Of a stretch of DNA of 64,000 nt, positions 4,918 to 42,661 are shown one piece after another. The notes under the pieces are model-generated. The model was not told where the DNA came from and did not search any database. It saw only the letters and a list, made by a program, of their open reading frames with translations. The position numbers were made by a program, and so were the translations under genes. The DNA is from Terriglobia bacterium. Lineage in GTDB: Bacteria > Acidobacteriota > Terriglobia > JAIQFV01. The DNA is taken from positions 1 through 64,000 of the forward strand of contig JAIQFY010000016.1 in assembly GCA_020072965.1 (NCBI GenBank). Reading direction: 5' to 3'. The stretch's first letter is position 1; every line of letters starts with the position of its first letter.

Positions 4918-7575
4918 TTATTCATAATGAAGTGCCACCAGGGGATCGACCCGAGTCGCCCGGCGTGCCGGCAGATAACACGCGACCAGAGCTGCGATCA
5001 CCAATAAAGCGGCGGCTGCAACGAAGGTCAGAGGATCTGTGGGAGTCACTTCAAAGAGCAACGATCTGAGAAGGTCAGTCAAAGCCAAGGCCCCCACCAG
5101 TCCCATTCCTACGCCCAGCATAACCACCCAAAAGCCCTGGCCGACCACCATTCTGAGCACATCGGAGGTCTTTGCCCCCAGGGCCATGCGGATGCCGATT
5201 TCATGGACGCGCTGGCTGACCGTAAGGGCCAGGATGCCCCCAATGCCGCCTCCTGCGATCACAAGGGCCAGGGCGGCAAACAGACCGAGAAGATTCGTCA
5301 TCACCCGCGGTGAGGCCAGGGTGTCACTGCGTGCTTGCTCCAGCGTCATCACATTGGTGATGGCCGTCTCGGGGTCGAGTACGTGAATCGTCCGGCGCAG
5401 CTGGGCCGCAAGATTCATCGGATCGCCGTTGGCCCGCACGATCAAACTGCCGACTGCGGGATTCTGAGCCATTGGAAGGTAAAGCTCATCGGCCGCTTCT
5501 TTATTGAGCCCGAACTCCTTCACGTCTCCCACCACACCGATGATATTCATCCAGGTTTTTCCCTTGTCGAAAGAAATCCGTTTGTCGAGGGGGTCTCCGT
5601 CTCTCCAGTGATGATGGGCCAGGGACTGGTTGATGACCGCTACCGCCGGGGCTTTCTCACTGTCCGTTTCCGCAATCGCTCTCCCTTTGACCAGCGGGAT
5701 GCCGAGGGTTTTGAAGTAGTCCGGGGTGACGGCACGGATGGCGGACACGGGATTAACTTCCTCCTGCAGGGAGGGACTTCCCTCCACCAGGAATCGATTT
5801 GATCCCGGACCCCGCGCCAGGATGCCGTCGGGGTCCATGGGAAATCCTGATGAGACCGCAACGGACACCATCCCCGGCTGGGTCTGCACCTTCTGGAGAA
5901 GTCGCCGGGCGTAATCAAGGTACTGCTCCGGTTTCTGGTACTTCGACCAGTTCAGGTTGAACCCCAGGCTCAGCACATTTTGGGGGACGAAGCCCGGATC
6001 CACTCTTTGGAGCTTCATTAAGCTTCGCATCAGGAGCCCTGCGCCCACGAGTAACATAATCGAGAAGGCCACCTGTAAAACAATCAGCACACTCCGCGCC
6101 CGCTTTCGACCCCTCCCCCCGGTCGACTGACTGCTCCCTTCTTTCAATCTCGATGCAATGTCGTCCCGCGAGGAAAACGCCGAGACAGAACCAAAAAAGA
6201 CGCTGGTACCGAAGGCCGCCAGCATGGTGAAGAGCAGGACCGGGCCATCGATGCGGATCTCGCGGGCTCGCGGAGTCAGCCGGGCCGCAAACTCCACCAG
6301 GAGTTTGAGGCTTCCGCTGGCCATCAGCAATCCCAGGCCGGCAGCCAGCAGGCCGATGAGTGAACTCTCGGTGACCAGTTGGCGCAGCAGCCGGCTCATG
6401 TTGGCTCCCAGCGCGGAACGAACCACCAGTTCACGCTCCCGCTTCGCCATGCGGGCGAGCGTCATGTTGGCGACGTTGGCGCACGCGATGAGGAGGACGA
6501 AACCCGCCGCGCCGAGCAGGACCAGCAGCGTCGGCCGGGCCTGATGAGTCAGTTCTTCTCGCAACGAGGAGGTGATCGAGGTATAGCCCGAGTTGGCGGG
6601 ATAAAATTCGGGGTATGCTTTTCCCAGCCGCGACGCGATCGATGCCACGTCGGCGCGGGACTGGTCCAAGCTGACCCCCGGCTTCAGCCGCCCAAAGACC
6701 CGCATCATGCGCTGGTCCCGGTGCTCGGTCATGGCCGGTGATGAGCGATACGGGCACGCGGAGGTCGGCATGTACACATCATTCTCGTTGGGATATTGGG
6801 GGACCGGCGGCAAGACCCCCACAACCGTGTGGACTCTGTCGTTCATCTCGAACGTCTTTCCAACGATATCGGGATCCCCACCCAGGAACCGCTGCCAGTA
6901 CTCATAGCTGAGCACCAGGACGGCGGGCGCGCCGTGCTCTTCATCGGAATCCCGAAAGGTTCTCCCAAGGGTCGGCCGGACTCCAAAGAGATCGAAAAAG
7001 CCCGCGGACACCACCCCCGTTCGGACTCTTCGCGCCTCTCCGTGACCCAGCAGGGTGAAGGTCATGCTGTGATACTCCACGAGTCCACTCAGGGTGCTGT
7101 TTTGGTCGCGGTAGTCCTTGACCTCGGCAACTGAAAACGGGACGTTCGAATCTCCGAGCTTGGGGGCCTCCTGCTGGATCATGACCAGCTGGTTCCCCTG
7201 GGAATACGGCAATGGCTTCAGGAGAATGGCGTGGATGACGCTGTAGATGGCGGTGTTGGCGCCGATGCCGAGGGCCAGGGTGGCGACCGCGACCAGGGTG
7301 AATCCGGGGTTGCTCCGCATCATCCGAAACGCGTATTTCACATCCTGTCGCAACATGGAGAGATGCTCCCGCGGCGCCGTCGTAAAGATTCCCACAAGGG
7401 TCTCCCACCACAGCCGAGCCAGCCCCATCACCCCTCCTTCGCGGTCCACATCATGGCGTTGCTCACAAAAGACGGCCTCCATCTCCCCTCCAAAGTTTTC
7501 CCGAAAATCCATGGGGAAGACACGGAGCAACATGCGAAAAGCACGTTGGGAGAACGATTGATCTTTCGGGCTCAT
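4918..7575 (-). CDS. ADOP-type MacB/FtsX permease 1
   Basis: The 885-residue protein has a short cytoplasmic N-terminal region (about residues 1-70). Two units follow, each made of a MacB-like periplasmic core and FtsX-type membrane helices. The first transmembrane segment carries the family signature [15 protein letters not shown], the FtsX part begins near VLLGAAGFVLLIACANVANM, and the C-terminus RRATRVDPLVALHYE is typical. ADOPs lack an adjacent ATPase; family knowledge suggests efflux or envelope work, with substrate unknown. GGGAG is too close to the ATG at 7581 but well spaced for the ATG at 7575, so the latter is preferred. padR lies nine bases upstream of the longer start, forming a padR-ADOP operon. 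Confidence 0.9.
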   Translation of the reverse strand: MSPKDQSFSQRAFRMLLRVFPMDFRENFGGEMEAVFCEQRHDVDREGGVMGLARLWWETLVGIFTTAPREHLSMLRQDVKYAFRMMRSNPGFTLVAVATLALGIGANTAIYSVIHAILLKPLPYSQGNQLVMIQQEAPKLGDSNVPFSVAEVKDYRDQNSTLSGLVEYHSMTFTLLGHGEARRVRTGVVSAGFFDLFGVRPTLGRTFRDSDEEHGAPAVLVLSYEYWQRFLGGDPDIVGKTFEMNDRVHTVVGVLPPVPQYPNENDVYMPTSACPYRSSPAMTEHRDQRMMRVFGRLKPGVSLDQSRADVASIASRLGKAYPEFYPANSGYTSITSSLREELTHQARPTLLVLLGAAGFVLLIACANVANMTLARMAKRERELVVRSALGANMSRLLRQLVTESSLIGLLAAGLGLLMASGSLKLLVEFAARLTPRAREIRIDGPVLLFTMLAAFGTSVFFGSVSAFSSRDDIASRLKEGSSQSTGGRGRKRARSVLIVLQVAFSIMLLVGAGLLMRSLMKLQRVDPGFVPQNVLSLGFNLNWSKYQKPEQYLDYARRLLQKVQTQPGMVSVAVSSGFPMDPDGILARGPGSNRFLVEGSPSLQEEVNPVSAIRAVTPDYFKTLGIPLVKGRAIAETDSEKAPAVAVINQSLAHHHWRDGDPLDKRISFDKGKTWMNIIGVVGDVKEFGLNKEAADELYLPMAQNPAVGSLIVRANGDPMNLAAQLRRTIHVLDPETAITNVMTLEQARSDTLASPRVMTNLLGLFAALALVIAGGGIGGILALTVSQRVHEIGIRMALGAKTSDVLRMVVGQGFWVVMLGVGMGLVGALALTDLLRSLLFEVTPTDPLTFVAAAALLVIAALVACYLPARRATRVDPLVALHYE

Positions 7576-7590
7576 ATCCATGCTCCCTTC

Positions 7591-7959
7591 TTAGGCAGGT
7601 TTCGGCTTCTTCAACAGGTGTCTTACGCGGGCCATCATGATCAGTTTTTCCATCCGCTCCGCCTCGGAGATCGCGACCTGGCGTCCCCAGTCGGTCAGCT
7701 GGTAATAGCGGCGGCGGGCGTCGTCGTGTTCGCGCGCCGGCCGGCGCCGGCACTCCAGGACCATTCCCTCGGCGAGCAGGCGCTTGATGATCCCGTACAG
7801 TGTTCCGGTACTGAGTTTGACTTCGCCGTGGGTCTGTTCGGCCACGTCCTTCAGGATGGCATAGCCGTGCTTCTCCCCGTCAGCCAGCGACAGCAGCACC
7901 TGAAACATGGCCGCCGTCAAAGGCGAGGGCACCTCGATCGTTTCATCTTTCGGGTTCAT
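7591..7959 (-). CDS. PadR-family regulator 1
   Basis: The 122-residue winged-helix protein has the PadR pattern: MFQVLLSLADGEKHGYAILKDVAEQT, then STGTLYGIIKRLLAEGMV, then RRRYYQLTDWGRQVA. PadR proteins are usually repressors released by small ligands. It begins an operon with ADOP 1, just downstream. A consensus-like promoter lies upstream (8004-8033), overlapped by inverted ACTAT/ATAGT and TATGTCG/CGACATA motifs that are good candidates for its own operator. It differs in sequence and length from the two shorter PadR proteins later in the window. Confidence 0.9.
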   Translation of the reverse strand: MNPKDETIEVPSPLTAAMFQVLLSLADGEKHGYAILKDVAEQTHGEVKLSTGTLYGIIKRLLAEGMVLECRRRPAREHDDARRRYYQLTDWGRQVAISEAERMEKLIMMARVRHLLKKPKPA

Positions 7960-8003
7960 AGACCCTTCTCTCCGGACATCATGGAATTATTATGTCGCCG
8001 CGC

Positions 8004-8033
8004 ACTATATCGACTGACGACATAGTATGTCAA
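8004..8033 (-). promoter_or_regulatory. padR promoter with overlapping inverted repeats
   Basis: On the minus strand TTGACA (8028-8033) and TATAGT (8004-8009) are separated by 18 bases, about 45 bases before the padR start. Inverted ACTAT...ATAGT and TATGTCG...CGACATA pairs overlap the core promoter, as expected for autorepression. Confidence 0.65.
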
Positions 8034-8091
8034 GAGAATAATGCAGGACAGGGTTGCAGGGGAGTTCAGTGACCCGGCCTGTCCCGAGGGG

Positions 8092-8713
8092 CTATTCATA
8101 GCGCCAGGCGACGATCGGATCGACCCGGGGGGCCCGTCGATCCGGGATGTAACTCGCCAGGAGGGCAAAGCCAGCGAGCAAGAGAGAGACTGCGCCGAAG
8201 ACCCAAGGATCGGTCGGCCGGACGGCATAAAGCAGAGCGGACAGGTACCGCATCACTCCCACCGCACCTGCAATTCCCACAACCACACGCGCCAGTGGCC
8301 CACACCATGCTTCCCCGGACCATCAGCTGAAGCACGTCACGGGACTGTGCACTCCACACCACGCGGACCCCGGAAATTCGCTCCGGCTCATTCCCTTCGG
8401 AGAGGTTGTAACCGCTCCCAGCGGAGTCGAACTGCGCCATGTCTTCAAACACGCGAGTTTGTCGCCGCCAATCGAAATAGTTCGGCGCCGAGACGAGGTT
8501 GGTGTCGTCGTGCAAAGTGGTCCGCCACACAGGGACCAAGTGGTCCGGATCAGGATAGGGCAAGGGTCTCAACAGAACCGCATTGACGACGCTGAAAATC
8601 GCGGCATTCGCACCGATGCCCAATGCCAATGTCAGGACCGCGATCGCGGTAAATCCCGGATTTTTCAGGAGCATCCGTAGAGCAAACCGGAGATCTTTAA
8701 CCAGAAAATCCAT
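8092..8713 (-). pseudogene. ADOP permease remnant with large internal deletion
   Basis: A normal ADOP start (ATG at 8713, GGAGGGAG upstream) encodes [14 protein letters not shown], the [15 protein letters not shown] membrane segment and about 140 residues up to PERISGVRV. The sequence then jumps straight to the last FtsX unit ([16 protein letters not shown]). It continues in another frame as [15 protein letters not shown] and the C-terminus [13 protein letters not shown], ending at 8092. About three quarters of the gene are missing and the reading frame is broken after the junction. It lies just upstream of padR 1, so a second ADOP once neighboured the operon. Confidence 0.85.
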
Positions 8714-9059
8714 CGGTCTCCCTCCCACGCCTGTGTGCGCCGGTTCGAAGAATATTGAGCCCAAGATTAGTGAACGACTAAAGTCATTACTACTAAGGTT
8801 CGGTGTCGAACTACTGGAGAGCACCTTCTCTGCCAATTCACCGGGGTCGTTTTCCGATTGAATTCTAATGGGTTGTGGCAAGGGGGAGAATCGTATCGCT
8901 AGACCCGGGTGTCCGAAAGCGAAATCTCATCATCCCAGAACCGGACAGTCTGTGGAGGGGGAGATGTGATCCTGCCTGTCGCGATGGCATCGTTTTCCCG
9001 TTCCCCGGTATTTGACTTCTGTCTTTCTTCCATGATAAAAGCTGAGTTAAGGAGGAGTT
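8714..9059. other. Intergenic region
   Basis: No credible gene is present. It separates the minus-strand ADOP remnant from the plus-strand thioredoxin-like gene and contains that gene's probable promoter near 9012-9039. Confidence 0.6.
9012..9039 (+). promoter_or_regulatory. Possible sigma-70 promoter
   Basis: TTGACT and GATAAA are separated by 16 bases, about 20 bases before the start of the thioredoxin-like gene and just ahead of its strong ribosome site. The -10 match is weak. Confidence 0.4.
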
Positions 9060-9452
9060 ATGGGTGGGCCGAAACCGGTTCAGGTCGAAGTGCTCATCCA
9101 CACGCCCACAGTTTTTCTCAATTGCCGGCATTGCGAGTTCGTCTTGCAGCAGACCGGCTCAACCCGAAGTGTCCGCCAGGAGCAGATCGATTCATCCCTC
9201 CCTGATGATTTGAAAAAACAATACCAGGATGTTTCAGAGTGGGTGATCCGGACAGCCAAGGCATTTGAGGATCGCGTTGTTTTCAAAATCATTGATGTGG
9301 GCTCGATCGAAGGCTTTCTCAAATCACTCCGCTACGGGGTGCACAGGTACCCGGCAATCATTGTCAACTGCAAGGACAAAATAACCGGCTGCGATTTGAA
9401 TCGCGCCAATCCGGTGATTGGCCGGCAAGTCGCTGCCCGGTTCGGCCATTAA
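9060..9452 (+). CDS. Small thioredoxin-fold protein with CxxC
   Basis: The 130-residue protein begins with a short strand region and then FLNCRHCEFV, a CxxC pair at residues 22 and 25. Later YPAIIVN supplies the cis-proline strand expected of a thioredoxin fold. Two more cysteines follow (NCKDKITGC). No signal peptide is visible, so a cytoplasmic redox role is likely. The start is secure: AAGGAGGAG lies just before the ATG. The sequence does not match any named thioredoxin or glutaredoxin that can be assigned by eye, so the partner and reaction stay open. The CstA-type transporter gene begins 127 bases downstream on the same strand. Confidence 0.8.
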   Translation: MGGPKPVQVEVLIHTPTVFLNCRHCEFVLQQTGSTRSVRQEQIDSSLPDDLKKQYQDVSEWVIRTAKAFEDRVVFKIIDVGSIEGFLKSLRYGVHRYPAIIVNCKDKITGCDLNRANPVIGRQVAARFGH

Positions 9453-9579
9453 TCGCAAGCCGGCTGCATTTCAGACCGGTACTCTTCTGCAACAAACATA
9501 AGTTTCCAACCCTCCGGCCCTCCGCTCCGGTGCATGGTTGCGAGACGTAACTCACCATTCCAAAATTTGGAGGCTCGTG

Positions 9580-11625
9580 ATGAAAATCTGGACGGCGATT
9601 CTGATCCTCATCGCAATACCGGTCGTGGTGGCCGGGGGCGTTCCTCTCTTAGGCAAATCGATGAATGCCGCGATCATAGCGTTGTTGGGCGGGTTTATGA
9701 TCTATCTCGCCTACAACCTCTATGCGCGGCGCATCGATCGCGATATCATCAAGCCCGATGCCAAGAAAGCGACGCCTGCGAAGATGTACATGGACGGCGT
9801 CGATTTCATGCCCACCAGCCGGGGTGTGCTTTACGGCTATCACTTCAAATCCATCGCGGCGGCCGGACCCATCGTCGGCGTCATCACGGCCGTCAACCTG
9901 TGGGGATGGTTTCCTTCCATCCTCTGGCTCATTATCGGGGTGACCTTCCTGGGTTGGGCCAGCGATTATTCCGCCATTATGGTGGCGGTGCGCAACGACG
10001 GCAACTCGCTGTCGGCCATTGCCCACCGGTTGATTGCCCCCCGGGCCCGCGTCATTCTCTTCGTCTTCATTTTCTTCTATCTGCTGCTTCTGGCGGGGGC
10101 CTTTGTCGGCATCCTGGCAGGTATCCTCGATCCCCGCGCCGACGTTCCGTTCGGCATCCTGATGCTGGCGATCATGGGACTGCTGGCCGGACAGATGCTT
10201 TACCGCTGGAAGATGGACCTCATCCTGGTCACGCTGGTGGCTGTGGTCATTACGCTGGGCTCGATGGCCATTGGCGCTTGGGGTGCATTGCCCAAGCAAG
10301 GGACCGGTCCGAACGGCAAGCCCGCCACCGCCCTGGCATTTGTGGGGCCCATCAACTCCGCCGTCAATCGCCTGGACAACGCCATCAACCGGATCACCGG
10401 CGGCCAGGCCATGTACAAGGTGGTGGACCCCACCGGCGCGGATCCACGGCTGGGCGCCATGATGATTGACGATCAGGGCAAAGTCACTCCCAAGTACAAG
10501 GACCCGAGCGGCGAGATCCGCATGCTCCCGTCGTTCGTCTTCTGGTGCCTGTTCCTGTTCGGATTCTGTTACCTGGGGACGCTGCTGCCAATCTGGCGAT
10601 TTGCTCAGCCGGTGAATTACATCGGCTTCTGGGTGACCTCCCTCACCATTGTGCTTTCTGCACTGGGGGCGCTGCTGGGAGGGGCGCTCGGCCTGTTCGG
10701 GTACGTCGACAAGCTCCAGGCGGTGACATTCACCACGAAGGTCTTTACCACCTGGATGCCCATGACCAAAGCCGCGGGGCAGACCCTAGCGGCGATTCAG
10801 CCGTTCTGGCCCATGCTCTTTGTGACCATCGCATGTGGGGCCATTTCCGGCTGGCACGTGCTGATTGGATCGGTGGGGACGGCGCGCCAGCTCGAATATG
10901 AGACTGACGCCTTGCCGGTAGGAGGCGGGGCGATGTTCAGCGAGAACGCACTGGCCATGTTGTCGCTCATTGCCGTCTCCATAGCGGGCGGCGTGGGGGG
11001 CGGGGCTTTCGCTTCCGGCGTGGGCAAACTACTCAACCTCGTTTCCTTTGGGGCGATTCCTCAGGCCTATGGGACCGCACTCGGGTTCGGAACTTTCGTG
11101 ATTATCGTGTTGACGGTCGTCCAGCTTGTCTTCCGGCTGATGCGGGTGACACTGGGAGAGTGGCTGGGCGAGTGGTGGGTGGGATTCAAGAACCCGCACG
11201 TCACCGCGATCGTTTCCATGCTGCTGGCCCTGTTGCTGGTGCTGAGCGGAACGTGGATCTACCTGTGGCAATTGTTCGGTGCGTCGAACCAGTTGATGGC
11301 GGCCCTCAGCCTGCTGATCGTGACACTGTGGCTGCGTTCGACCGGACGTAATCCGGCTTACGCGATGTATCCGATGCTGTTTATGTATGTCACCACGATG
11401 GCAGCGACTTTGGTGACGGCTTACAACCTGTATGCCAGCGTGCTGTCGAATCCCAATGTCGCAAAGGAGCCGATCAATACTGTCGGCGCCATTGCTATGA
11501 TCGCGGTCGCCGCACTGCTCTTTATCGCCGCCCTTTTCATCGCCTGGGACGCCTGGAAGGCGTGGCGCCGTATGAGCGCTTCACCAACAGCGGCGGCTCC
11601 TGCGCCTGCTCTTGCGTCGAAGTAA
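9580..11625 (+). CDS. CstA-family carbon-starvation transporter
   Basis: The 681-residue integral membrane protein matches the CstA family: KSIAAAGPIVGVITAV, LGWASDYSAIMVAVRNDGNS, and WHVLIGSVGTARQLEYE with a downstream glycine-rich helix. The C-terminal half has the conserved LWQLFGASNQLMAALSLLI. About 15-17 membrane segments are visible. A hydrophilic insert of about 80 residues near residues 230-310 is longer than expected. CstA proteins take up pyruvate or peptides under nutrient limitation; which substrate applies here cannot be told. The ATG at 9580 follows GGAGG with good spacing; a 14-residue upstream extension is unlikely. Confidence 0.92.
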   Translation: MKIWTAILILIAIPVVVAGGVPLLGKSMNAAIIALLGGFMIYLAYNLYARRIDRDIIKPDAKKATPAKMYMDGVDFMPTSRGVLYGYHFKSIAAAGPIVGVITAVNLWGWFPSILWLIIGVTFLGWASDYSAIMVAVRNDGNSLSAIAHRLIAPRARVILFVFIFFYLLLLAGAFVGILAGILDPRADVPFGILMLAIMGLLAGQMLYRWKMDLILVTLVAVVITLGSMAIGAWGALPKQGTGPNGKPATALAFVGPINSAVNRLDNAINRITGGQAMYKVVDPTGADPRLGAMMIDDQGKVTPKYKDPSGEIRMLPSFVFWCLFLFGFCYLGTLLPIWRFAQPVNYIGFWVTSLTIVLSALGALLGGALGLFGYVDKLQAVTFTTKVFTTWMPMTKAAGQTLAAIQPFWPMLFVTIACGAISGWHVLIGSVGTARQLEYETDALPVGGGAMFSENALAMLSLIAVSIAGGVGGGAFASGVGKLLNLVSFGAIPQAYGTALGFGTFVIIVLTVVQLVFRLMRVTLGEWLGEWWVGFKNPHVTAIVSMLLALLLVLSGTWIYLWQLFGASNQLMAALSLLIVTLWLRSTGRNPAYAMYPMLFMYVTTMAATLVTAYNLYASVLSNPNVAKEPINTVGAIAMIAVAALLFIAALFIAWDAWKAWRRMSASPTAAAPAPALASK

Positions 11626-11651: not shown

Positions 11652-12305
11652 TTACAACAGCTCGGCCATCTGATGTAGCTTCTCGAAGATTTGTTGCGAC
11701 GGGAGCTTTTCCAGACCGTCGAGGTGCCACTGCACTTCCAGATGAGGGGTGGCGCTATGGACGGCCAGCCGCACCATCGTGCAACCCGGAAGTGTCGCCA
11801 GACCGAGCAGCCTGGGGGTGGCCTCTGCTGCCCCCACACCCTGCGCATAGGCGGTCAAAGCTGATCCGGGGCCGGTTTCGATCTGCGACCACGCCCAGTG
11901 CTTGCGCCGCACCTCGGCGCGGGCGTCACGGGTCGACCACGCCCCTTCATCCATTACTTCAAGCTCGAACCTCGGCGCGTCACTCGAATCGATGCGAACG
12001 ATGAGCAGGTCGCGACGTCCGCGAGCGCGAAAGAACCATCGGATAAACGGGACATCTCGCGGTTCAAGCACAATGAAGATTTCCAAGTGGTGAAACGGGG
12101 CCTTTGGTTTTTGTACCTTCAGCTCCACTGCGGAGGAACCCAGCCACCGCAGTGTCGCTTTTTCACCGGCCAGACGCAGCCCGTCCTGCAGCCAGCGCAA
12201 TATCCGCTCTCCTTTTCGGATGTTGAGCTGAGTGCCAACCGCAAACCAGCCCAGAAAGAGGATCACCGCAAGGATGAACACGCTCAGGCCGACGGTGTTA
12301 GACAT
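11652..12305 (-). CDS. Membrane-anchored protein of unknown function
   Basis: The 217-residue protein has a single N-terminal transmembrane segment (VGLSVFILAVILFLGWFAV) and then a soluble domain of about 190 residues. Most of that domain is probably cytoplasmic, because a positively charged stretch (IRKGERILRWLQDG) follows the membrane helix. I do not recognise a catalytic motif. Coding character is supported by the signal-anchor, balanced composition and lack of disruption. It converges on the CstA gene, their stops being 26 bases apart. The ribosome site is weak (GGGG about ten bases before the ATG). Confidence 0.7.
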   Translation of the reverse strand: MSNTVGLSVFILAVILFLGWFAVGTQLNIRKGERILRWLQDGLRLAGEKATLRWLGSSAVELKVQKPKAPFHHLEIFIVLEPRDVPFIRWFFRARGRRDLLIVRIDSSDAPRFELEVMDEGAWSTRDARAEVRRKHWAWSQIETGPGSALTAYAQGVGAAEATPRLLGLATLPGCTMVRLAVHSATPHLEVQWHLDGLEKLPSQQIFEKLHQMAELL

Positions 12306-18406: not shown

Positions 18407-18636
18407 GGGCCGCTTGCGAGATGAGGCTCATTCAAATGCAGCCAGAAAACACTCGTCTATCTCCAATCAGAGGCCCGCATGAGCCTGCGCTTGAAAACAA
18501 ATCGCAGTTGTTTGACGCGTTAGATTCTTGCTACGGCTTCACAGAACAGGCCAAAACGTCCAACCCCCTCGCTCGAGTTCCTGATTTCAAATGACGCTCC
18601 CTCGTAGTATCATAGCTTCAAGGGGTCTTGCCGCGA

Positions 18637-18975
18637 GTGAAAGCCGCGGAAGGGCCTTTGAGTTGGAAAGTGAGTGATCCTGTGGGAGAGCGGGAACCGG
18701 GGCGTTTGGGCGGATTTCGAGCCAGGATCCGTGAGTTCTTTTACGGAATGACCGGGCTGGAGTTTGAACGCCAGGGGCTCGAGATGCGCGGGGCGCTGGA
18801 GACGATCTTCATGGCCGTCACGCTCGGCGACATGCTGGGACTTCCCATCATCCCGCCGATTTACTCGCTTCGAATCCTGCCGTACGTTGTTCCCGGCATA
18901 GAGACCTGGAAACGTCGTATGGCGCGCGAACGCGAATTTTCGGATAGCGAAGAATTTCACCTCCACGGCGCCTGA
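18637..18975 (+). CDS. Small membrane protein A of an ATPase cluster
   Basis: The ~112-residue protein has a charged N-terminus, RIREFFYGMTGLEFERQ, then a hydrophobic hairpin-like stretch MAVTLGDMLGLPIIPPIYSL and the conserved end LRILPYVVPGIETWKRRM. It is a clear paralogue of the next gene (shared LGIPxxPPxYSLRxLPYVVPxIxTWKRRMxRE). Starts at TTG 18628, GTG 18637 or a later GTG are possible; GTG 18637 has AGGGG upstream. Two ArsA/Get3-like ATPase genes follow, so it is probably a membrane partner or client of those ATPases. I know no named family for it. Confidence 0.72.
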   Translation: MKAAEGPLSWKVSDPVGEREPGRLGGFRARIREFFYGMTGLEFERQGLEMRGALETIFMAVTLGDMLGLPIIPPIYSLRILPYVVPGIETWKRRMAREREFSDSEEFHLHGA

Positions 18976-19013
18976 GCGCTGGCGTCAAAATCGAAATATC
19001 AAAAGAGGAAAAA

Positions 19014-19319
19014 ATGCCGGAAGAAAAAGAGAAGGCCAAGGAAACAGAGAAGGTAAAAGAAAAAGAGAAAGCTGGATTCTTTCATAAGATGAAAGAGGTC
19101 ATGTATGGGATGGCCGCGCATGATATGTCGCGGTATGCGCTGCGCACCCGCTCCAGCATGGAGCACCTCTTCATCCTCATCACCATGGGCGACCTGATTG
19201 GCATTCCCATCCTGCCTCCCTATTACTCACTGCGGTTGCTCCCCTATGTCGTTCCCAACATAGCCACCTGGAAACGGCGCATGCTTCGCGAGAAGGACGT
19301 TTCGGACGCCATGTTCTGA
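19014..19319 (+). CDS. Small membrane protein B of an ATPase cluster
   Basis: The 101-residue protein starts with a very charged K/E-rich segment (residues 2-25, likely a helix) and continues as a paralogue of the preceding gene: FILITMGDLIGIPILPPYYS, then LRLLPYVVPNIATWKRRMLR. The hydrophobic PP-containing stretch could be a re-entrant loop or two short membrane helices. AGAGGAAAAA precedes the ATG. Two diverged copies side by side, followed by two diverged ATPases, suggest a two-by-two heteromeric complex. Confidence 0.8.
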   Translation: MPEEKEKAKETEKVKEKEKAGFFHKMKEVMYGMAAHDMSRYALRTRSSMEHLFILITMGDLIGIPILPPYYSLRLLPYVVPNIATWKRRMLREKDVSDAMF

Positions 19320-19416
19320 GCGGGTCAGCCATCCATCACCGGCCTTTTCAAGTGATCGTCATGCCTTACCCATCGCTTACCTGTCAAATCATAAAATTCA
19401 AATCGAGCGGATCACA

Positions 19417-20391
19417 ATGTCATTAAAAGAGACTTTCGAACGCAACAAGGAACGTCGCTATATCATGTTCGGCGGAAAGGGCGGCCTCGGCAAGACCACC
19501 TTCTCGGCGGCAACCGCTTACTGGCTGGCGAAGCAGGGTCACAAGGTGCTTGTCTTTTCAGTGGACCCGCAAGCCTCCTTGAGCGACATCTTTCAACAGG
19601 ACATCTTCGGCAAGGGCGCGGTCAAGATCATGGACAACCTTTACGCCCAGGAGATTGACGCCGATTCCCACATCCGGGAATACCAGAACGAGATCCGCAA
19701 GAAGATCCTCGACATGTATGGCTTCGAGCAGATTCCTGAAGAAATCGAAAACTACATCCAGGCGGCCTCCGCCGAACCCGCCATGGAAGAGTCCGCCATC
19801 TTCGACGCAGTGGTGGATATCGTGGTCAAAGGCGACTATGACTATTACATCTACGACCTGGTGCCGCTGGGGCACGCGCTCTACTATCTCTCGATGGCCA
19901 AAGTTTATGATGAGTGGATCAACCGCATCACCAAGCTGCGGGAGGAGATGCGTGAATATGAGGAGATGGTGGCACGGATCAAACGGGAGAAGGTGGCCGA
20001 AGAGGACCAGATCCTTCACGAGCTTCAATACATCAAGAAACGAATCAATCTGTCTTCAGCCATTCTGACCGACCGGGACAAGACCGCCTTCTTCTTCGTC
20101 CTCGTGCCCGAGGAAATGATTATCATTGATACCAAGAATGCCGCGGAACTCTTTGCCAAGTTCGACGTGCCGATCGTGGGCTATGTCGTCAATCGCGTCC
20201 TCCCGGAGGAACTGGCCACCCAGGATATTCCGCCTTACCTCAAGAATCGGATCAAGATGCAGGCGCACTACCTGGACAAAAGCCGCCAGACCTTCGGCGA
20301 CAAAGTAGTCGGCTACGTGCCGGAACTGGAACGCGATGTGACCGGCCTCCCAATGATCGAAAAACTTGCCAAAATCATGTATGGAGACTGA
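19417..20391 (+). CDS. ArsA/Get3-like ATPase 1
   Basis: The 324-residue SIMIBI-class ATPase has a deviant Walker A, GGKGGLGKTTFS, at residues 19-30. The signature lysine typical of ArsA, Get3 and MinD is present (K21). Switch I keeps its aspartate (VDPQAS, D50) but lacks the usual histidine. The family's DTAPTGH switch II motif reads DLVPLGH (147-153). A long charged helical region follows at about residues 175-205, where Get3 and ArsA place the client- or metal-binding subdomain. No ArsA metal cysteine triad is evident. It lies 97 bases after membrane protein B and 13 bases before ATPase 2, in one apparent operon. Confidence 0.85.
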   Translation: MSLKETFERNKERRYIMFGGKGGLGKTTFSAATAYWLAKQGHKVLVFSVDPQASLSDIFQQDIFGKGAVKIMDNLYAQEIDADSHIREYQNEIRKKILDMYGFEQIPEEIENYIQAASAEPAMEESAIFDAVVDIVVKGDYDYYIYDLVPLGHALYYLSMAKVYDEWINRITKLREEMREYEEMVARIKREKVAEEDQILHELQYIKKRINLSSAILTDRDKTAFFFVLVPEEMIIIDTKNAAELFAKFDVPIVGYVVNRVLPEELATQDIPPYLKNRIKMQAHYLDKSRQTFGDKVVGYVPELERDVTGLPMIEKLAKIMYGD

Positions 20392-20404
20392 AAGGGACAT
20401 AGCG

Positions 20405-21409
20405 ATGCACGATATTCAGGAATCATTGACCGATTACATTCAGAAACACCCCTCCCTGAAATACATCTTCTATGGCGGAAAAGGCGGGGTCGGCAAGACG
20501 GTGATGGCGGGGGCGAGTGCCCTGTGGTTTGCAGGACAGGGCCGGCGGACCTTGCTCGCTTCAACCAATCCCGTGCATAGCCTTTCGGGCCTCCTGGGTC
20601 AGGACGTTTACGGCAAGCCGACCGCCGTTAATGGAACCTCGAATCTCTGGGCTTATGAGATTGACACCCACGAAACGATTGGTCGACTGAAACTCGATAT
20701 CAAGCAAAAGATCCAGTGGTTTTTGAAGTTCGCTGAGATTTCGACGCAGGCCGACGCCTTCGTCGAAAGCGCCACCATGAATCCGGCGTTCGAAGAATCG
20801 GCCATGTTTGAGAACATGGTCGACCTCATGTTCAAAGACGAATACGACGTTTACGTTTTTGACACGGCCCCTACGGCCAACGCGCGCCGGCTGCTCGGGA
20901 TGAGCAAGGTGTACTCGCTGTGGGTCAACAAAATGCTCAAGTCGCGCGGAGAGGCTCAGTCACTTCGCCAGCTGCTTTCGTTTACTAAGAAAAAAGAAGA
21001 AGACCCGTTGATGGACTATCTCGTTTCGTTTCGCGACCGGATGGGACACGCGCGGGAGCTTCTGACCGACCCCGAAAAGACCTCTTTCTTCTTTGTGACC
21101 CTGCCCGAAGCCTTGCCCATCGCGGTGATCAAGCGGTTCATCAACTGGTTTCACGATTTTGGAATTCCTGTGGGCGGCGTGATCGTCAACATGCTCATCC
21201 AGAAAGCACAGGTCCAGCCCGGCGCCCCCGAGTTCGTGAAGAACCGCGTTAAAATGCAACAGTCGTACATGGACGAGATCTGGCGCGACTTCGATGGCAG
21301 TGTGCGCGCGCTGATTCCCCTCTTTGACAACGAAGTGCGCGGCGTTGAATCGCTCAGCCGGGTCTTCGATCAGAACTGGCAGAATTGGGACCAGGTAGCA
21401 CAGCCGTAG
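20405..21409 (+). CDS. ArsA/Get3-like ATPase 2
   Basis: The 334-residue protein is homologous to the preceding ATPase but clearly diverged. Walker A is GGKGGVGKTVMAG (24-36). Switch I reads STNPVHS, with asparagine (N55) where ArsA and Get3 have the catalytic aspartate of STDPAH. Switch II reads DTAPTANARRLL (153-164). A charged region with KKKEEDPLMDYL follows at about residues 195-206. In yeast Get3 the matching D-to-N change blocks hydrolysis, so this subunit may bind ATP without hydrolysing it while its partner turns over. The ATG at 20405, after AAAGGG, is preferred over one 13 codons upstream that overlaps ATPase 1. Confidence 0.85.
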   Translation: MHDIQESLTDYIQKHPSLKYIFYGGKGGVGKTVMAGASALWFAGQGRRTLLASTNPVHSLSGLLGQDVYGKPTAVNGTSNLWAYEIDTHETIGRLKLDIKQKIQWFLKFAEISTQADAFVESATMNPAFEESAMFENMVDLMFKDEYDVYVFDTAPTANARRLLGMSKVYSLWVNKMLKSRGEAQSLRQLLSFTKKKEEDPLMDYLVSFRDRMGHARELLTDPEKTSFFFVTLPEALPIAVIKRFINWFHDFGIPVGGVIVNMLIQKAQVQPGAPEFVKNRVKMQQSYMDEIWRDFDGSVRALIPLFDNEVRGVESLSRVFDQNWQNWDQVAQP

Positions 21410-21902: not shown

Positions 21903-22622
21903 TTAATGTTTGCCGACCTCGAGCGACCGGCCCTTGCCCTGGGAGAGGATGTAGGCTTCCACGGCTCGCAACTTTTCATCGTCCTGAGGCAGCGGCTTCC
22001 CTTTTTCGGGATTCTCGATGCACCAGTTGATCATATCCCGCAGCAACGCCACCTTTTTCAATTGCACCTGGAACTTGGGATAAGTTTCGGGGTGCGTATT
22101 GGACGAGTCGGGATGGCACATGTCGCAGGAAATACCGATGGTGCCGCCGAGCCCTGTTGAGCTATGGAACAACCGGTATCCCTCATCAACCATCTTCTTC
22201 AACTCGAGATTCCAGATCAATTTGTCGCGATCCGTAAACTTCACCGGCTGTTTCTCAGGCGCTGAAGCGGCCGGTATAGTTTGCTGCTCCGCACCCGTCA
22301 CGGGATGGGAGGCCATCGCCAGGGCTTCCTCCTGTCTCCAGGACCCAACGCGTTGCGGATTCCTTTCCATCCACGCGGCCAAAATCACGCGGGCCATTTT
22401 CAGTGACTGTTCCCGATTGTTGGGATCATGTGAGGACGGGACATCGAGGCCGGCGTTGGCCACGCCGTCACACGGGGTCACCTGGACATGCTGGACCCTA
22501 TCCGTCCGATCCTGCGGCGTGCCCGCCGAAGCCCGCTGGGAGAAAAGGAACATCGCTACCGTTGATATCAGCACACTCGCCAGGATTCCCCAAAGGAGTT
22601 TCCTTTCCCTATTTGTTTGCAT
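21903..22622 (-). CDS. Membrane-anchored monohaem cytochrome c
   Basis: The 239-residue protein has an N-terminal anchor (LLWGILASVLISTVAMFLF) and a periplasmic domain with one haem-binding CDMCH. A helix follows containing LRDMINWCIENP and a C-terminal DDEKLRAVEAYI typical of class I or Sox-like cytochromes. Residues 40-110 are low in structure. It should carry electrons in the periplasm. AAGGAG lies eight bases before the ATG. It is transcribed in the same direction as a phosphoesterase and a di-haem peroxidase upstream, with gaps of 66-90 bases, so the three probably form one operon. A mono-haem photosynthetic-type role is not supported. Confidence 0.85.
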   Translation of the reverse strand: MQTNRERKLLWGILASVLISTVAMFLFSQRASAGTPQDRTDRVQHVQVTPCDGVANAGLDVPSSHDPNNREQSLKMARVILAAWMERNPQRVGSWRQEEALAMASHPVTGAEQQTIPAASAPEKQPVKFTDRDKLIWNLELKKMVDEGYRLFHSSTGLGGTIGISCDMCHPDSSNTHPETYPKFQVQLKKVALLRDMINWCIENPEKGKPLPQDDEKLRAVEAYILSQGKGRSLEVGKH

Positions 22623-22712
22623 ACCCGCTTCTCCTTATCTGCTGACCATCTCTTGGATTTCTGCCTTTCCAATCGTAGAGTCAAGGTCTAGCGGTTTCCC
22701 GCCCCTGCTCCT

Positions 22713-23864
22713 TCAATACGTCGAATCCACAGCGAGTGGCGGTTGATCCACCTTTCCGCCGCTGTCCAGGTAGCGGGCGGTAATCGTGACCGGATTCCGC
22801 GACCAGAGATTGTAGCGCGCATTCACTTCACCGCTCTTGAGCACATCCATGGAGCCGTCCCCGCAGCCGTCGAATTCATCAAAGGGATCGGCACGGTTCA
22901 TTTGGACCGTCAGTTTCGGGAGGCCGTGCGGCGCATAGGGCCACGGCCACGCCGTGGAGAGCATTCCGTGAAAGGAAATATTCCCGATGCGGTTGGACAA
23001 CATCTGGTGGGTGTGACCGTGGATGACGGTGACGGTCTTGAATGGCGCCAAAAGCGCTTGAACCTGTTCCGCGTCGTCGGTCCAGAAATTCCACGCCTTG
23101 TAATACTTGTAAAGCGGGGAATGGGAAAAGACGACCAGCGGAGTGGTTTTTGGGACTGCCGCCAGGTCGTTCTTGAGCCACTCGCGCTGCGCTTCCCCGA
23201 CCGTGAACGGCCGGCCGTGCGGATTGTCGAGTTGCGCCATGGCCTGCATGCGCTGGAGTGGGGTCAGGTTCGGCTTGGTCCAGTAGTCTTCAACGACGAC
23301 GCTTTGAAGGACGACGAAATGAACGCCCTTGTGATCAAAGGAGTAGGTTTCTTTGCCGAACAACTCCCGCCATTTTTCACCCATGTCGAAATACCAATCA
23401 TGCTCGCCCACCATCATATAGCGTTTGGGTTTCAGCTCATCCAGGATCTGTTTTCCCAGCGCCAGCTCGCCAGGTGCGCCCAGTTGCGCCAGATCTCCAC
23501 CAAAAAGAACGAAGTCAGGCTGAGGATCCAGGGCATTGACATCGGCCACGGCTTTTATAGCCGCCCGAACAAAGCGCTCGTTGAGCTTCTTTTCATAAAG
23601 GTGGGAATCGGAAACATAGGCGATGGTGAACGACTTCGGCGCCTCGGGAGCCGCCGCGGCGCCGCCCGACGCCCCGCCCTCCCCTCCAAAATCAAATTCG
23701 ATCGGTTGAAAGGAGTGGGCTGCAATCTTTCCCGTGGCAGCCACTGTAGCGGCGGCAATGCCGGCCACTCGCAAGAAGCCGCGACGCGAGAGCGAGGTGA
23801 GCTGCTTCAGGTAGCTTTCTCGCGCAGTCAAGTATTCCTGATGCTGTGCTTCTTTTGGTCCCAT
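22713..23864 (-). CDS. Tat-exported metallophosphoesterase
   Basis: The 383-residue protein begins with a twin-arginine signal, SRRGFLRVAGIAAA, at about residues 26-39, followed by a glycine/alanine linker. The calcineurin-like metal motifs are all visible: SDSHLY (D-x-H), FGGDLAQLG, GEHDWYF (in place of GNHD), FSHSPLY and HGHTHQ. The fold binds two metal ions and hydrolyses phosphoesters in the periplasm. Tat export implies folding with its metals in the cytoplasm. Its position between a cytochrome c and a di-haem peroxidase is odd for a phosphatase, so a redox-linked or haem-handling role is worth considering. AAGGAGG precedes the ATG. Confidence 0.88.
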   Translation of the reverse strand: MGPKEAQHQEYLTARESYLKQLTSLSRRGFLRVAGIAAATVAATGKIAAHSFQPIEFDFGGEGGASGGAAAAPEAPKSFTIAYVSDSHLYEKKLNERFVRAAIKAVADVNALDPQPDFVLFGGDLAQLGAPGELALGKQILDELKPKRYMMVGEHDWYFDMGEKWRELFGKETYSFDHKGVHFVVLQSVVVEDYWTKPNLTPLQRMQAMAQLDNPHGRPFTVGEAQREWLKNDLAAVPKTTPLVVFSHSPLYKYYKAWNFWTDDAEQVQALLAPFKTVTVIHGHTHQMLSNRIGNISFHGMLSTAWPWPYAPHGLPKLTVQMNRADPFDEFDGCGDGSMDVLKSGEVNARYNLWSRNPVTITARYLDSGGKVDQPPLAVDSTY

Positions 23865-23930
23865 GGTTCCTCCTTGGCTTTTAGACTCGTCGGTTCGTCC
23901 CGGGATCTCGGTTCGATGGATCCCTCTCGC

Positions 23931-25136
23931 TCACTTCTTCTGCTCGGCAACCCTTGACTTGGCTTCCCGAGCGATGTCATCGCTCGTGAGTGCCTTCATA
24001 AATTCCACTAGATCACCCTTCTCTTCGGCTGTCAGGTTAAGCTTGACAATCCCGCCATCGAGATTGGGATTGGGCTCGCCCCCCTTGTCGTAGAAGTCAA
24101 CGACATCGGCCAGGGTCGCCTGGCTGCCGTCATGCAGGTAGGGAGGGGTCAGCGCCACGTTGCGCAGCCCCGGCGTCTTGAACGCGCCGATATCCTTCGG
24201 CTGCCGGCTCACCAGGAAGCGGCCCAGTTCGGCGTAGGCCTCATCATGAGCCAGCGTGGAGAGACTGCCTCCGGAGAGGGTGGCTGCCTTCCGGGCGAGC
24301 GCGTCGAAGGATTTGGCGTTCATGGCCACGCCGATGTTGTGAAACTTGTTGTCAGTAAAGAACGGGGAGGTCGAATTGAATGCGTGACAGGAGATGCACC
24401 GCCCCTTGTTCTGGAAAAGGTTCCAACCCCGCTTGGCAGAGTCCGACAGGGCCGTCTGGTCACCTGCCACAAACCGGTCGAACGATGAATCGCCTGCTAC
24501 GAGCGTCCGCTCGAAAGCGGCAATCGCCTGAACCGCGCGATCGATCGTAATCTCACCCCCGAAAACATCTTTGAAGGCCTTGACGTATTCGGGAACCCCT
24601 TTCAACTTGCTCACCACGGCATCGTGCGATGGCATGCCCATCTCAACAGGATTGGTGAGAGGCTGCTTGGCTTGCTCTTCCAGGGTCGGGGCCCTCCCAT
24701 CCCAGAATTGAAACTCATTGAAAACTGCATTGAGCACGGTGGGCGAATTTCGGGCGCCCTTCTGGTGCTTGATCCCTACCGCCACCCTCTCTTCGTCAGC
24801 AAATGCAAACGCGGCATCGTGGCAGGTGGAACAGGCCACCGTGTTGTCAGCCGAAAGCCTTTTGTCGAAATAGAGTTTTCGCCCCAACTCCACCTTGGCG
24901 GAAGTCATCGGATTCTCAGCAGGCACCAGGATTGACCACAGATCGCCTGGAATCCCGAGAGGAAATTTTGGCTGGAAGGAGGTCGACTCCGCTGCTTGTG
25001 CAAAAAGCATGCCGGCCCCGCTGAATGCCCCGCCAGGCCCGAACAATCCAGGGGCGCTGCCGAGCACCAGGCCAACCATCCACACACCGATAAGACCAAG
25101 AGAGGCGATCCATCTCAGGTTTTCTTGACGAGGCAT
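23931..25136 (-). CDS. Di-haem cytochrome c peroxidase / MauG-like protein
   Basis: The 401-residue periplasmic protein has a hydrophobic leader. The N-terminal domain contains CSTCH with the nearby ELGRKLYFDKRLSADNTVAC; the C-terminal domain contains CISCH. The conserved FKTPGLRNVALTPPYLHDGS stretch and DVVDFYDKGG are family hallmarks. Members reduce hydrogen peroxide with electrons from a small cytochrome or, like MauG, oxidise protein side chains. The nearby monohaem cytochrome is a natural electron donor. GGAGG precedes the ATG. It is the first gene of the minus-strand operon and faces an ECF sigma factor gene across a 257-base spacer. Confidence 0.92.
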   Translation of the reverse strand: MPRQENLRWIASLGLIGVWMVGLVLGSAPGLFGPGGAFSGAGMLFAQAAESTSFQPKFPLGIPGDLWSILVPAENPMTSAKVELGRKLYFDKRLSADNTVACSTCHDAAFAFADEERVAVGIKHQKGARNSPTVLNAVFNEFQFWDGRAPTLEEQAKQPLTNPVEMGMPSHDAVVSKLKGVPEYVKAFKDVFGGEITIDRAVQAIAAFERTLVAGDSSFDRFVAGDQTALSDSAKRGWNLFQNKGRCISCHAFNSTSPFFTDNKFHNIGVAMNAKSFDALARKAATLSGGSLSTLAHDEAYAELGRFLVSRQPKDIGAFKTPGLRNVALTPPYLHDGSQATLADVVDFYDKGGEPNPNLDGGIVKLNLTAEEKGDLVEFMKALTSDDIAREAKSRVAEQKK

Positions 25137-27928: not shown

Positions 27929-30379
27929 CTATTCACAGCGCAACACCGCGATGGGATCGATCTTTGTTGCGCGGCGCGCAGGTATAAGAGATGCGAGGGC
28001 GGAGACCAGGATGAGCACTGCGCACACTAGCCCCAGGATAACCTTGTCGGTCGGGCTGACAGCATACAGGAAACCGCTCATGAATCTTAATCCGGCCCAG
28101 GTTCCCAACAATCCCAGGGAGACGCCTGCAAACGCCATTCTCAAGCCGGACCGCAGGAACAAATTCAATACGGCGCCCGGCTGTGCCCCTATGGCGATAC
28201 GGATTCCGATTTCCCGCGTCCGCTGACTCACCGCATAGGAGATGACTCCGTACAATCCGGTGATGCTGATGACCAGGGCCAGCCCCGAAAACAGTGTTAG
28301 CAGCAGCGTGATCATTCGAGGTTGCGCCACGGAAGTCTCCACAACCTGTTTGTAGGCCTGGAAGTGCGTGATGGGCACGTCCCGGTCCAGGCCCCAGATC
28401 AGCTTCGGCATGACAGTGGAAAGCAAAACAGGATCGTTCTCAGTCCGTGTAATCAGGAACGCCTGCAGACCGATCCGGTGACCCCACGGTATCATTGAGC
28501 CCTGGATTTGCGGAGTGAACATATAGAGCTCGGGCAGGGGGGGCGATTCGAGAGCGATCTCGCGGGTATCCCCCACCACACCGATGATGGTGAACCACCA
28601 CGGGAAGTTCTGGTCGTCCAGGCGGCTCCATTTGATCCGCTTCCCGATCGGATCTTCATTGGCGAAGAATTGTCTGGCGATGGTTTCATTGATGATCGTC
28701 ACCAGCGGTGACTGCGACGTATCCTGATCCGTGAAAGTGCGTCCCCGCAGCAGCGGAATTTGAAGAGTCTTGAAGTAGTCCGCAGTGACAAAGCGCTGTT
28801 CGTTGGCGATGTAGGTCCCGTGGGGAGGCTCCGGATGCCCTTCGATCGAAAAGCTGATTCCGCCTCGTCCTGCCAGCGGCAGGACGTTCGTCAATGCCGC
28901 GAACCTTACTCCGGGCAATCCCTCGATCTTTTTCATTAGCTCGTCCTGGAAACGGGCAATCTGTCCCCCTTGCGTGTAACGGGTCTCAGGAAGAAAGAGA
29001 TCGGCCGTGAGGACGCCGCCGGCGTCAAATCCCGGATTCACCTGTTCGAGTCGCCACAGACTCTTGATCAACAATCCCGCACCAGCCAACAGGGTCAAGG
29101 TGACGGCGACCTGCCCGACCTGCATCCAGTAGAGAAAATGCCTTCCCCCCGGAGAGACATGGGCATCGGAGAACTTCAAGGATTCATTGATTTCAGTGCG
29201 GGTCGCTAGCCACGAGGGAGCCAAGCCGAAAATCACCACGGTCAACAGGGACAGGATCACGGTGAAACCCAGAACACTGGCGTCCATTTCGACCCCGCGG
29301 ATCTCCAGCAGAAGGTCGGGCGGAAGCAGGCGGGGAAGGGCTTCAACCAGCAGTTTGGAGAGCGCGATGCCTGCGCAAGCTCCCATCGTGGCCAGCACCG
29401 TGCTCTCCGTCAAGAGCTGGCGCACGAGTCTGTGTCGGGGAGCACCCAATGCCGCTCGCATCACCATTTCTTTTTTCCGGGCAGTGCCGCTGGCCAGCAG
29501 GAGATTGGCAACATTGGCGCACGCAATCAGTAACACAAAGCCCACCGCACCCATCAGGATCATAAGGGCGGGCCGGATCCGGCCGGCGAGTTGTTCTCTC
29601 ATCGATAGAACCCGGATGCCTGATCCCGTGTTCCACTGGACTGATTCCGTCTCCAGCCGGCGGGCAATGCCGTCCATCTCGGCCTGGGCCTGACCCAGCG
29701 AGACCCCCGGCTTTAACCGCGCCACAGCGAGATAGCCGTGGTCACGATGATTGGAGAGTTCTTGCGGTTCCAGCTTCAGCGGAACCCACAACTGCGCAGG
29801 GTCGCCAGGCTCTGGAAGATAGAAACCTCCCGGCAGGACTCCGATGACCGTGTACGGGACTTCGTCCAGGTGGATGACCTGCCCGATAATGTTCGGGGAG
29901 GCACCCAGTCGACGCCATAAGCTGTCGCTCAGCACAACCACGTGACGTTGTTCGGTCTCGTCTTCTGTCAAGAAACCGCGGCCCAGCACCGGCGAGACGC
30001 CAAGCAGCGAGAACACATTCGCCGAGGTTTTCAACCCGCTGACGTTATCGGGATTGCCCGATCCGGTTAAGTTGATTTGATCAGGTTCCAGCAACGCCAT
30101 CTGCTCAAACACGTGGTTCTGCTCTCGCCACGCCATGAAATTGCCAACGGCGATAAAGCGACGATCCCACCGGGGAACGACCTTGGTCTCCCAGAGTTGC
30201 ATGACGGCCTCGGGTTGTCGATAGGGCAAGGGACGCAGCAGGACAGCCCGTACTACGCTGAAGATTCCTGTATTGGCGCCAATTCCCAACCCCAATGTCA
30301 GCACCGACACCAGAGTGAAGGCCGGATTCTTGGCCAGCACCCGGAAACCAAATTTGATGTCCTGCCAGAGGGTATCCAT
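27929..30379 (-). CDS. ADOP-type MacB/FtsX permease 2
   Basis: The 816-residue protein starts directly with the first membrane unit (MDTLWQDIKFGFRVLAKNP, TLGLGIGANTGIFSVV) and lacks the ~70-residue cytoplasmic N-terminal region of ADOP 1, 4, 5 and 6. Two MacB-core/FtsX units follow; the first FtsX helix is MGAVGFVLLIACANVANLLL, and the C-terminus is RRATKIDPIAVLRCE. AGGTGA precedes the ATG. No padR is adjacent; vapBC lies downstream and a gene-poor spacer upstream. The short N-terminus forms a group with ADOP 3 and 7 and the remnant. Confidence 0.9.
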   Translation of the reverse strand: MDTLWQDIKFGFRVLAKNPAFTLVSVLTLGLGIGANTGIFSVVRAVLLRPLPYRQPEAVMQLWETKVVPRWDRRFIAVGNFMAWREQNHVFEQMALLEPDQINLTGSGNPDNVSGLKTSANVFSLLGVSPVLGRGFLTEDETEQRHVVVLSDSLWRRLGASPNIIGQVIHLDEVPYTVIGVLPGGFYLPEPGDPAQLWVPLKLEPQELSNHRDHGYLAVARLKPGVSLGQAQAEMDGIARRLETESVQWNTGSGIRVLSMREQLAGRIRPALMILMGAVGFVLLIACANVANLLLASGTARKKEMVMRAALGAPRHRLVRQLLTESTVLATMGACAGIALSKLLVEALPRLLPPDLLLEIRGVEMDASVLGFTVILSLLTVVIFGLAPSWLATRTEINESLKFSDAHVSPGGRHFLYWMQVGQVAVTLTLLAGAGLLIKSLWRLEQVNPGFDAGGVLTADLFLPETRYTQGGQIARFQDELMKKIEGLPGVRFAALTNVLPLAGRGGISFSIEGHPEPPHGTYIANEQRFVTADYFKTLQIPLLRGRTFTDQDTSQSPLVTIINETIARQFFANEDPIGKRIKWSRLDDQNFPWWFTIIGVVGDTREIALESPPLPELYMFTPQIQGSMIPWGHRIGLQAFLITRTENDPVLLSTVMPKLIWGLDRDVPITHFQAYKQVVETSVAQPRMITLLLTLFSGLALVISITGLYGVISYAVSQRTREIGIRIAIGAQPGAVLNLFLRSGLRMAFAGVSLGLLGTWAGLRFMSGFLYAVSPTDKVILGLVCAVLILVSALASLIPARRATKIDPIAVLRCE

Positions 30380-38864: not shown

Positions 38865-39295
38865 CACTCGCCTCCCCAATGAAAGAAAATCAGTGGAACT
38901 CCCAGTGAGTCAAAAAGCCTCTTTAATTCAAGACGCGTTCAGTGAACCGAAGGTTTCGAAATAATGAATCCGTATTTACCTCCGCAAGGGGAGGATACCG
39001 TGGCAAACGATTCGATAACAAGTGGAAGGGAAGCTCTCTGCCATATGCTCTGTCTAATTTTGGCCCGAATTTTGATTTTAAGGGCGTCAACCGGGCGTTA
39101 GGTTCTTCCATAAAAATCCATTGCGATTGAACGAAGGAAGTATGAAACTGTTCCGCCATAAGAGGGCCTAAACTGAATGGGACGGACGACTGACTCGGTT
39201 CCATCGGTCGATGAGTTAAGAGCAAGGAGTCTGCCCTTTTAATTTGAAATTTCCAATTTGAGATCAGGAACTTTCCCCTGAGTTAACATACGTAA
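38865..39295. other. Intergenic region
   Basis: No credible gene. Near its end (39241-39266) is an AT-rich unit, AATTTGAAATTTCCAATTTG followed by AGATC, that recurs at 42662-42687 and 58191-58213. Confidence 0.5.
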
Positions 39296-42526: not shown

Positions 42527-42661
42527 AGTGCCCTCCTTGCATCTCAAGAACGCCGGGTCGATGGCCGGCGTTGGTCTCCAATGAGTCCCTAATTGGGACC
42601 TGCCATGTTTGATTCCAGATCTTATCCAGGGTTCTAAATGTAAGCGGTCGCAAAGCAATCC

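Follow-up and report, generated by a model that had tools for sequence, protein, structure and literature searches.

We propose that two small CstX-like proteins (S1 and S2) and two ATPases of the ArsA/Get3 family (A1 and A2), encoded side by side in an acidobacterial genome, belong with a CstA-family permease to one CstA-centred system, an assignment that we hold with high confidence. Considering the partnership of this cassette with CstA, the system is probably an ATP-dependent version of the CstA pyruvate/peptide-type transporter. Sequence comparison establishes which genes make up the set, that they are syntenic and co-occur, the family of the ATPases and the conserved loss of the catalytic aspartate in A2. 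The window, i.e. the whole stretch of DNA that was analysed, comprises 64,000 nucleotides of a Terriglobia bacterium contig (JAIQFY010000016.1).

In the window, the cassette consists of four intact ORFs running in one direction on the forward strand and separated by gaps of 38, 97 and 13 nt: S1 (starting at 18637 with GTG or at 18628 with TTG, and ending at 18975), S2 (19014-19319, the more conserved paralogue, with an alignment of 70 relatives), A1 (19417-20391; PF02374, 2.8e-74) and A2 (20405-21409; PF02374, 3.8e-67). An earlier note, made from the letters of this DNA, had described two paralogous small proteins sharing an LPYVVPxIxTWKRRM motif and two diverged ArsA/Get3-like ATPases. Both descriptions were borne out: S1 and S2 share 50% identity across 80 aa (E 1e-32), A1 and A2 are 34% identical (E 9e-63), and both ATPases match PF02374. 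The single operon that it proposed holds for S1-S2-A1-A2 and not for the wider set, in which CstA and a thioredoxin-fold protein (T) lie 7 kb upstream and a further protein (U) is encoded on the opposite strand. A1 and A2 are the sole two strong ArsA-family members in the 5.9-Mb genome.

When a genome collection was scanned with A1, 80 loci with 67-85% identity were recovered, distributed among Chloroflexota, Acidobacteriota, Rokubacteria, Gemmatimonadota, Myxococcota and other delta-type lineages, Pseudomonadota, Bacteroidota and others. Almost all loci whose contig extends far enough preserve S1-S2-A1-A2 in this order, and gene order is largely kept even in deep relatives at 43% identity. 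The four-gene arrangement is not due to chance, since some 80 genomes from many phyla share it, order included. A third small paralogue was found in fifteen loci, mostly after A2 (L064:8050-8289, L089:8012-8263 and other Chloroflexota loci), so that three small proteins go with the two ATPases. No relative of S2 was found in the plasmid collection.

The CstA-family permease of the window (9538-11625, forward strand; PF02554, 3e-91) has 695 aa and about 14 hydrophobic segments. It lies 7 kb upstream of the cassette on the same strand, and 0.7-0.9 kb from S1 in relatives of the same class. Clustering of the ORFs neighbouring the cassette in relatives recovered CstA and T as a recurrent upstream pair. 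Indeed, CstA adjoins the cassette in nearly every sufficiently long locus, down to 38-40% CstA identity. The neighbourhood analysis across relatives that the earlier note had suggested thus brought out CstA as the key partner, a gene outside the coordinates of that note. Conserved flanking genes beyond CstA, T and U look lineage-specific by eye. The window also contains many large FtsX/MacB-like ABC permease genes, recognised by eye (4918-7581, 8096-8881, 27929-30379, 36426-38879, 39893-42658, 42960-45596 and, on the reverse strand, 54315-57047), as well as consecutive reverse-strand genes for a SoxA/TsdA-type cytochrome c, a metallophosphoesterase and a MauG-type di-haem peroxidase (21903-25136).

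Co-occurrence leads to the same partner. Among 297 Acidobacteriota genomes, a strong S2 and a CstA hit above 200 bits single out the same 12, and this CstA subtype is present in 12 of 12 A1/S2-positive genomes and in none of the 285 others. For the 201 Chloroflexota genomes, it was found in all 23 A1-positive genomes (71% identity or more) and in 1 of the 178 others; beyond these 23, a divergent A1 (43-44%) is present in two genomes, and another has an A2-like gene alone, at the edge of a contig. Taken together, the CstA subtype occurs in 35/35 genomes with A1 and in 1/463 without it (Fisher p ~5e-53, with CstA-subtype cut-offs picked after the scores were seen and with related genomes that are not independent). 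The pairwise distances of A1, A2, S1, S2 and CstA are also correlated (r 0.65-0.85, Mantel p 0.001), as is expected from co-function and from block transfer alike. The patchy distribution of these genes and their high identity across phyla do suggest block transfer, and the genes might travel together without any joint function. However, we consider this very unlikely in view of the gene order maintained in some 80 genomes, and largely so at 43% identity, and of the CstA subtype being present in just one of the 463 genomes that lack A1.

A1 (324 aa) and A2 (334 aa) each contain one PF02374 domain, and both are placed in the TRC40/Get3/ArsA family by this domain and by TIGR00345, which they match over its cut-off (239 bits for A1, cut-off 135). 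In A1, the switch-I aspartate (SVDPQAS) is kept in 90 of 90 sequences and switch II reads DLVPLGH, again in 90 of 90. In A2, an asparagine replaces the catalytic switch-I aspartate (STNPVHS) in 89 of 89 sequences, and switch II is DTAPTAN in every row covering the motif. Get3 with the equivalent change, D57N, still binds nucleotide but is impaired in hydrolysis (PMC6633398), and A2 is predicted to be hydrolysis-impaired as well. That the switch-I aspartate is replaceable solely by asparagine in single-domain homologues had been noted, and not interpreted, by Castillo & Saier (PMC2963123). Judged by these motifs, the degeneration of the two ATPases is complementary, A1 having a rewritten switch II and A2 having lost the catalytic aspartate. 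As neither protein keeps both canonical motifs, this suggests an obligate asymmetric heterodimer. The only PADLOC match was a 43-residue P-loop stretch of A1.

The family name also recalls arsenic resistance, where ArsA energizes ArsB, and CstA could in principle have been recruited by an ArsA for the efflux of arsenicals or other toxic anions. However, A1 and A2 reach 99.5 and 106 bits against the ArsA equivalog TIGR04291, whose cut-off is 650. Moreover, the ORFs of the window contain by eye no ars efflux gene, in agreement with the earlier note, and no ars gene is present in any cst operon (Castillo & Saier 2010, PMC2963123), so that we give this reading almost no credence.

The closest solved structures to A1 and A2 are the archaeal Get3 homologues 3ug6/3zq6, and the ATPases could be chaperones devoted to bringing S1/S2, or CstA, to the membrane; clients and ATPases would then be adjacent genes. 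The earlier note had likewise thought of tail-anchored protein insertion. Several features disfavour this reading. The zinc CxxC located at the Get3 dimer interface is absent from 90/90 A1 and 90/90 A2. The insert to which clients bind in Get3 is rich in charge here (charged fraction 0.48 for A1 and 0.40 for A2, against 0.19 for archaeal Get3; mean hydropathy -1.3, -0.7 and +0.07, respectively). In TRC40, the residues L190 and I193 are needed for client binding (PMC6633398). Furthermore, S1/S2 carry their hydrophobic stretch internally, with a basic tail behind it, so these are not classic tail-anchored proteins, and most CstA homologues manage without such ATPases. We therefore regard a targeting function as improbable.

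S1 (112-115 aa) and S2 (101 aa) each possess one borderline hydrophobic segment, which is weak (best 19-residue Kyte-Doolittle 1.65-1.69) and broken by a GIPILPP turn. The membrane location given to them in the earlier note is consequently a prediction, based on this single segment. The AF2 model of S2 is a helical hairpin of low confidence (pTM 0.36). The same note had matched the small proteins to no known family by eye; the profile search returned one named family, NF041419 (cory-CC-star), in a weak match to S2 (34.0 bits, E 2e-8) and S1 (28.9 bits, E 8e-7) that stays below the curated cut-off of 80 bits. To our knowledge, this family has no known function. Three of four single-copy relatives tested score above its cut-off. 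The C-terminal Cys-Cys is absent from S1, which ends mostly in GL/GV, and from S2, which ends mostly in MF/LG; on these alignments, S1/S2 have lost the CC tail of their single-copy relatives. The CC tail had raised the idea of a homology with YbdD, which received no support (hhalign probability below 1%), and the PF04328 profile (YbdD/YjiX, KCU-star) gave no match to S1/S2 at E up to 1. PHROGs gave no match for S1, S2, U or T.

The single-copy form was found in five Acidobacteriota loci, where a lone small protein with a Cys-Cys end accompanies a lone ATPase whose motifs are canonical (STDPAHS and DTAPTGH/DTAPSGH). CstA lies alongside in three of the five, in the layout CstA, small protein, one ATPase; in one single-copy locus (L117), two CstA-like genes (6627-8204 and 9756-11219) flank the small protein and the ATPase. 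The ATPase tree resolves A1 and A2 as two groups, both well supported and both with the deep Chloroflexota pairs L159/L160 in basal position; long branches leave the placement of the single-copy rows unsure. These deep pairs already have the asparagine in A2 (SLNPVHS) and the aspartate in A1 (STDPQAS). On this phylogeny, the A1 and A2 clades arose before the phylum-level spread, and the two-by-two form can be considered a defined ancient subtype.

Two further proteins accompany the system. T (9060-9452, forward strand), located beside CstA, is a thioredoxin-fold protein of about 130 aa with a CxxC motif (AF2 pLDDT 87), and Foldseek ranks mostly thioredoxins at the top (probability 1.00, best E 2e-3). 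C22, C25 and P98 are invariant in the alignment, P98 being at the cis-Pro position. The motif is CxxC in 35 loci, including the window copy, and TGAxxC in 7 of 42, mostly Rokubacteria (TGA at the first Cys in L083, L087, L094, L096, L097, L098 and L099). L099 has two T genes (from 4597 onward), a UxxC and a CxxC form, in the interval separating CstA from the small proteins. SelB is present in 10/10 genomes tested, including genomes with the Cys form of T, and its presence is only permissive for Sec in T; in a SECIS search by folding at the T genes, the energies of the UGA and Cys forms overlap. In its TGA form, T is a candidate selenoprotein family linked to CstA systems. Of 12 related Acidobacteriota genomes that have the system, 8 lack T, which makes it accessory and not universal. 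The possibility that T replaces the lost CC tail is weakened, as these 8 genomes with CC-less S1/S2 lack it.

U (11652-12305, reverse strand) has 217 aa with one N-terminal TM and belongs to no known family (no Pfam match, and no NCBIfam match above cut-off). Copies occur in 61 loci; in most of these, U is encoded on the opposite strand and fills the gap from CstA to S1. Both deepest two-by-two loci contain U; Rokubacteria and delta-type loci are without it. Castillo & Saier (2010, PMC2963123) described an archaeal protein of about 210 aa, CstY, to which U is similar in size and topology. U may correspond to CstY.

Considering all these elements, we think it likely that the role of A1/A2 is to energize or to gate CstA. 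In the more specific model, which we judge an even bet, S1-S2-A1-A2 would be the ATPase and coupling half of the CstA system. CstA would be the permease, for pyruvate or a peptide-like substrate by homology to the distant E. coli CstA, with S1/S2 as CstX-type small proteins next to it, at the membrane surface or within the membrane. A1 and A2 would form an obligate SIMIBI-class heterodimer docked on CstA via S1/S2; both subunits would bind ATP, efficient hydrolysis would take place at the A1 site only, and closing and opening of the dimer would drive transport by CstA. Energization is favoured by the adjacency of CstA across phyla, the co-occurrence, the correlated distances, the single-copy loci combining CstA, small protein and ATPase, the asparagine of A2 in 89/89 sequences, the need of E. 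coli CstA for YbdD and the proposal made independently in 2010. Against it, neither E. coli CstA nor BtsT, the latter annotated as a pyruvate:H+ symporter, needs an ArsA-type ATPase to function, which means that the fold does not depend on ATP, and conserved neighbours can be regulators or assembly factors. Other counter-points are the 7-kb gap between CstA and the cassette in the window and the correlated trees, also expected from inheritance as one block.

A stronger version, in which ATP-driven uptake by CstA would have turned a proton symporter into a primary pump, with one catalytic and one structural site, S1/S2 for coupling and a Sec/Cys thioredoxin for tuning, is put forward tentatively and seems to us rather less probable. 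Slightly less probable still is that A1/A2 gate CstA as an ATP-dependent switch, perhaps redox-tuned by T, which would open an H+-driven permease solely in the right energy or redox state. The H+ symport performed by CstA/BtsT relatives without an ATPase (PMC5847655), the predicted impaired hydrolysis of A2 and the (Sec/Cys)xxC protein T of many loci are in line with such a switch; the lack of T in 8/12 Acidobacteriota genomes with the system is not, and sequence does not separate gating from energization.

With a catalytic residue invariably lost from one ATPase paralogue and not from the other, a heterodimer with one active site is predicted, which sharpens the 2010 proposal. A permease family that normally works alone would have gained a dedicated ATPase pair and, if energization is true, an ArsA-type ATPase would power metabolite uptake and not metalloid efflux. 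The system also gives hints on the function of S1, S2, U and T, all of which are without informative annotation.

As regards known systems, the closest are the CstA-CstX-ArsA operons of Castillo & Saier (2010, PMC2963123), who reported 26 ArsA-CstA associations, 24 with CstX, with correlated trees, and suggested that CstA is energized by ArsA, CstX acting as a linker. Two of their organisms had adjacent ArsA genes, and one of these (Par) also had two CstX. These operons likewise have CstA, a one-TMS protein of about 90 aa (CstX, which S1/S2 resemble in size and topology), a single-domain ArsA homologue of about 330 aa and no ars genes. In the open-access literature, we found no later paper naming both CstX and CstA, and the literature found holds no experiment on any member of the system, ATP-coupled CstA transport included. 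In E. coli, pyruvate uptake by CstA depends on a small protein, YbdD (PMC5847655), and CstA-YbdD and BtsT-YjiX(-YjiA) share with our system the permease family and a small partner; unlike it, they have no ArsA-type ATPase, and YbdD/YjiX show no detectable homology to S1/S2. The E. coli btsT-yjiX-yjiA locus (L162), with a permease, a CC-ending small protein and a P-loop GTPase gene, has a parallel layout with another NTPase. YbdD (L161:4683-4877) and YjiX (L162:1880-2080) match the KCU-star selenoprotein family below cut-off, indicating that terminal Cys/Sec pairs recur in CstA partners. NF041419 is matched above cut-off by three of the four single-copy relatives tested, whereas S1/S2 have only 28.9-34.0 bits and no terminal CC. 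Get3/TRC40 and ArsA share the fold, the P-loop and TIGR00345 above cut-off, but A1/A2 lack the zinc CxxC, have a charged insert and no Get/Ars partners, and would be separate heteromeric subunits. The mycobacterial Rv3679/Rv3680 (BagA/BagB, 6bs3) are likewise two adjacent Get3-like ATPases, solved in one entry; the similarity is however marginal (at most 36.5 bits to the 6bs3 chains), and the BagA/BagB models are far below cut-off. Of the reading in the earlier note, a conserved heteromeric two-by-two module tied to the membrane and unrelated to arsenic is supported; the complex, which the note thought possibly undescribed, is of a kind already published by Castillo & Saier. Compared with the 2010 operons, which were given no interpretation on these points, the two-by-two form is here the rule in a large clade, with fixed complementary motif changes in A1/A2, S1/S2 without CC tail, and T and U as companions. 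The new elements are thus the two-by-two form itself, the complementary degeneration of the ATPases, the loss of the CC tail and the redox and one-TM accessory proteins.
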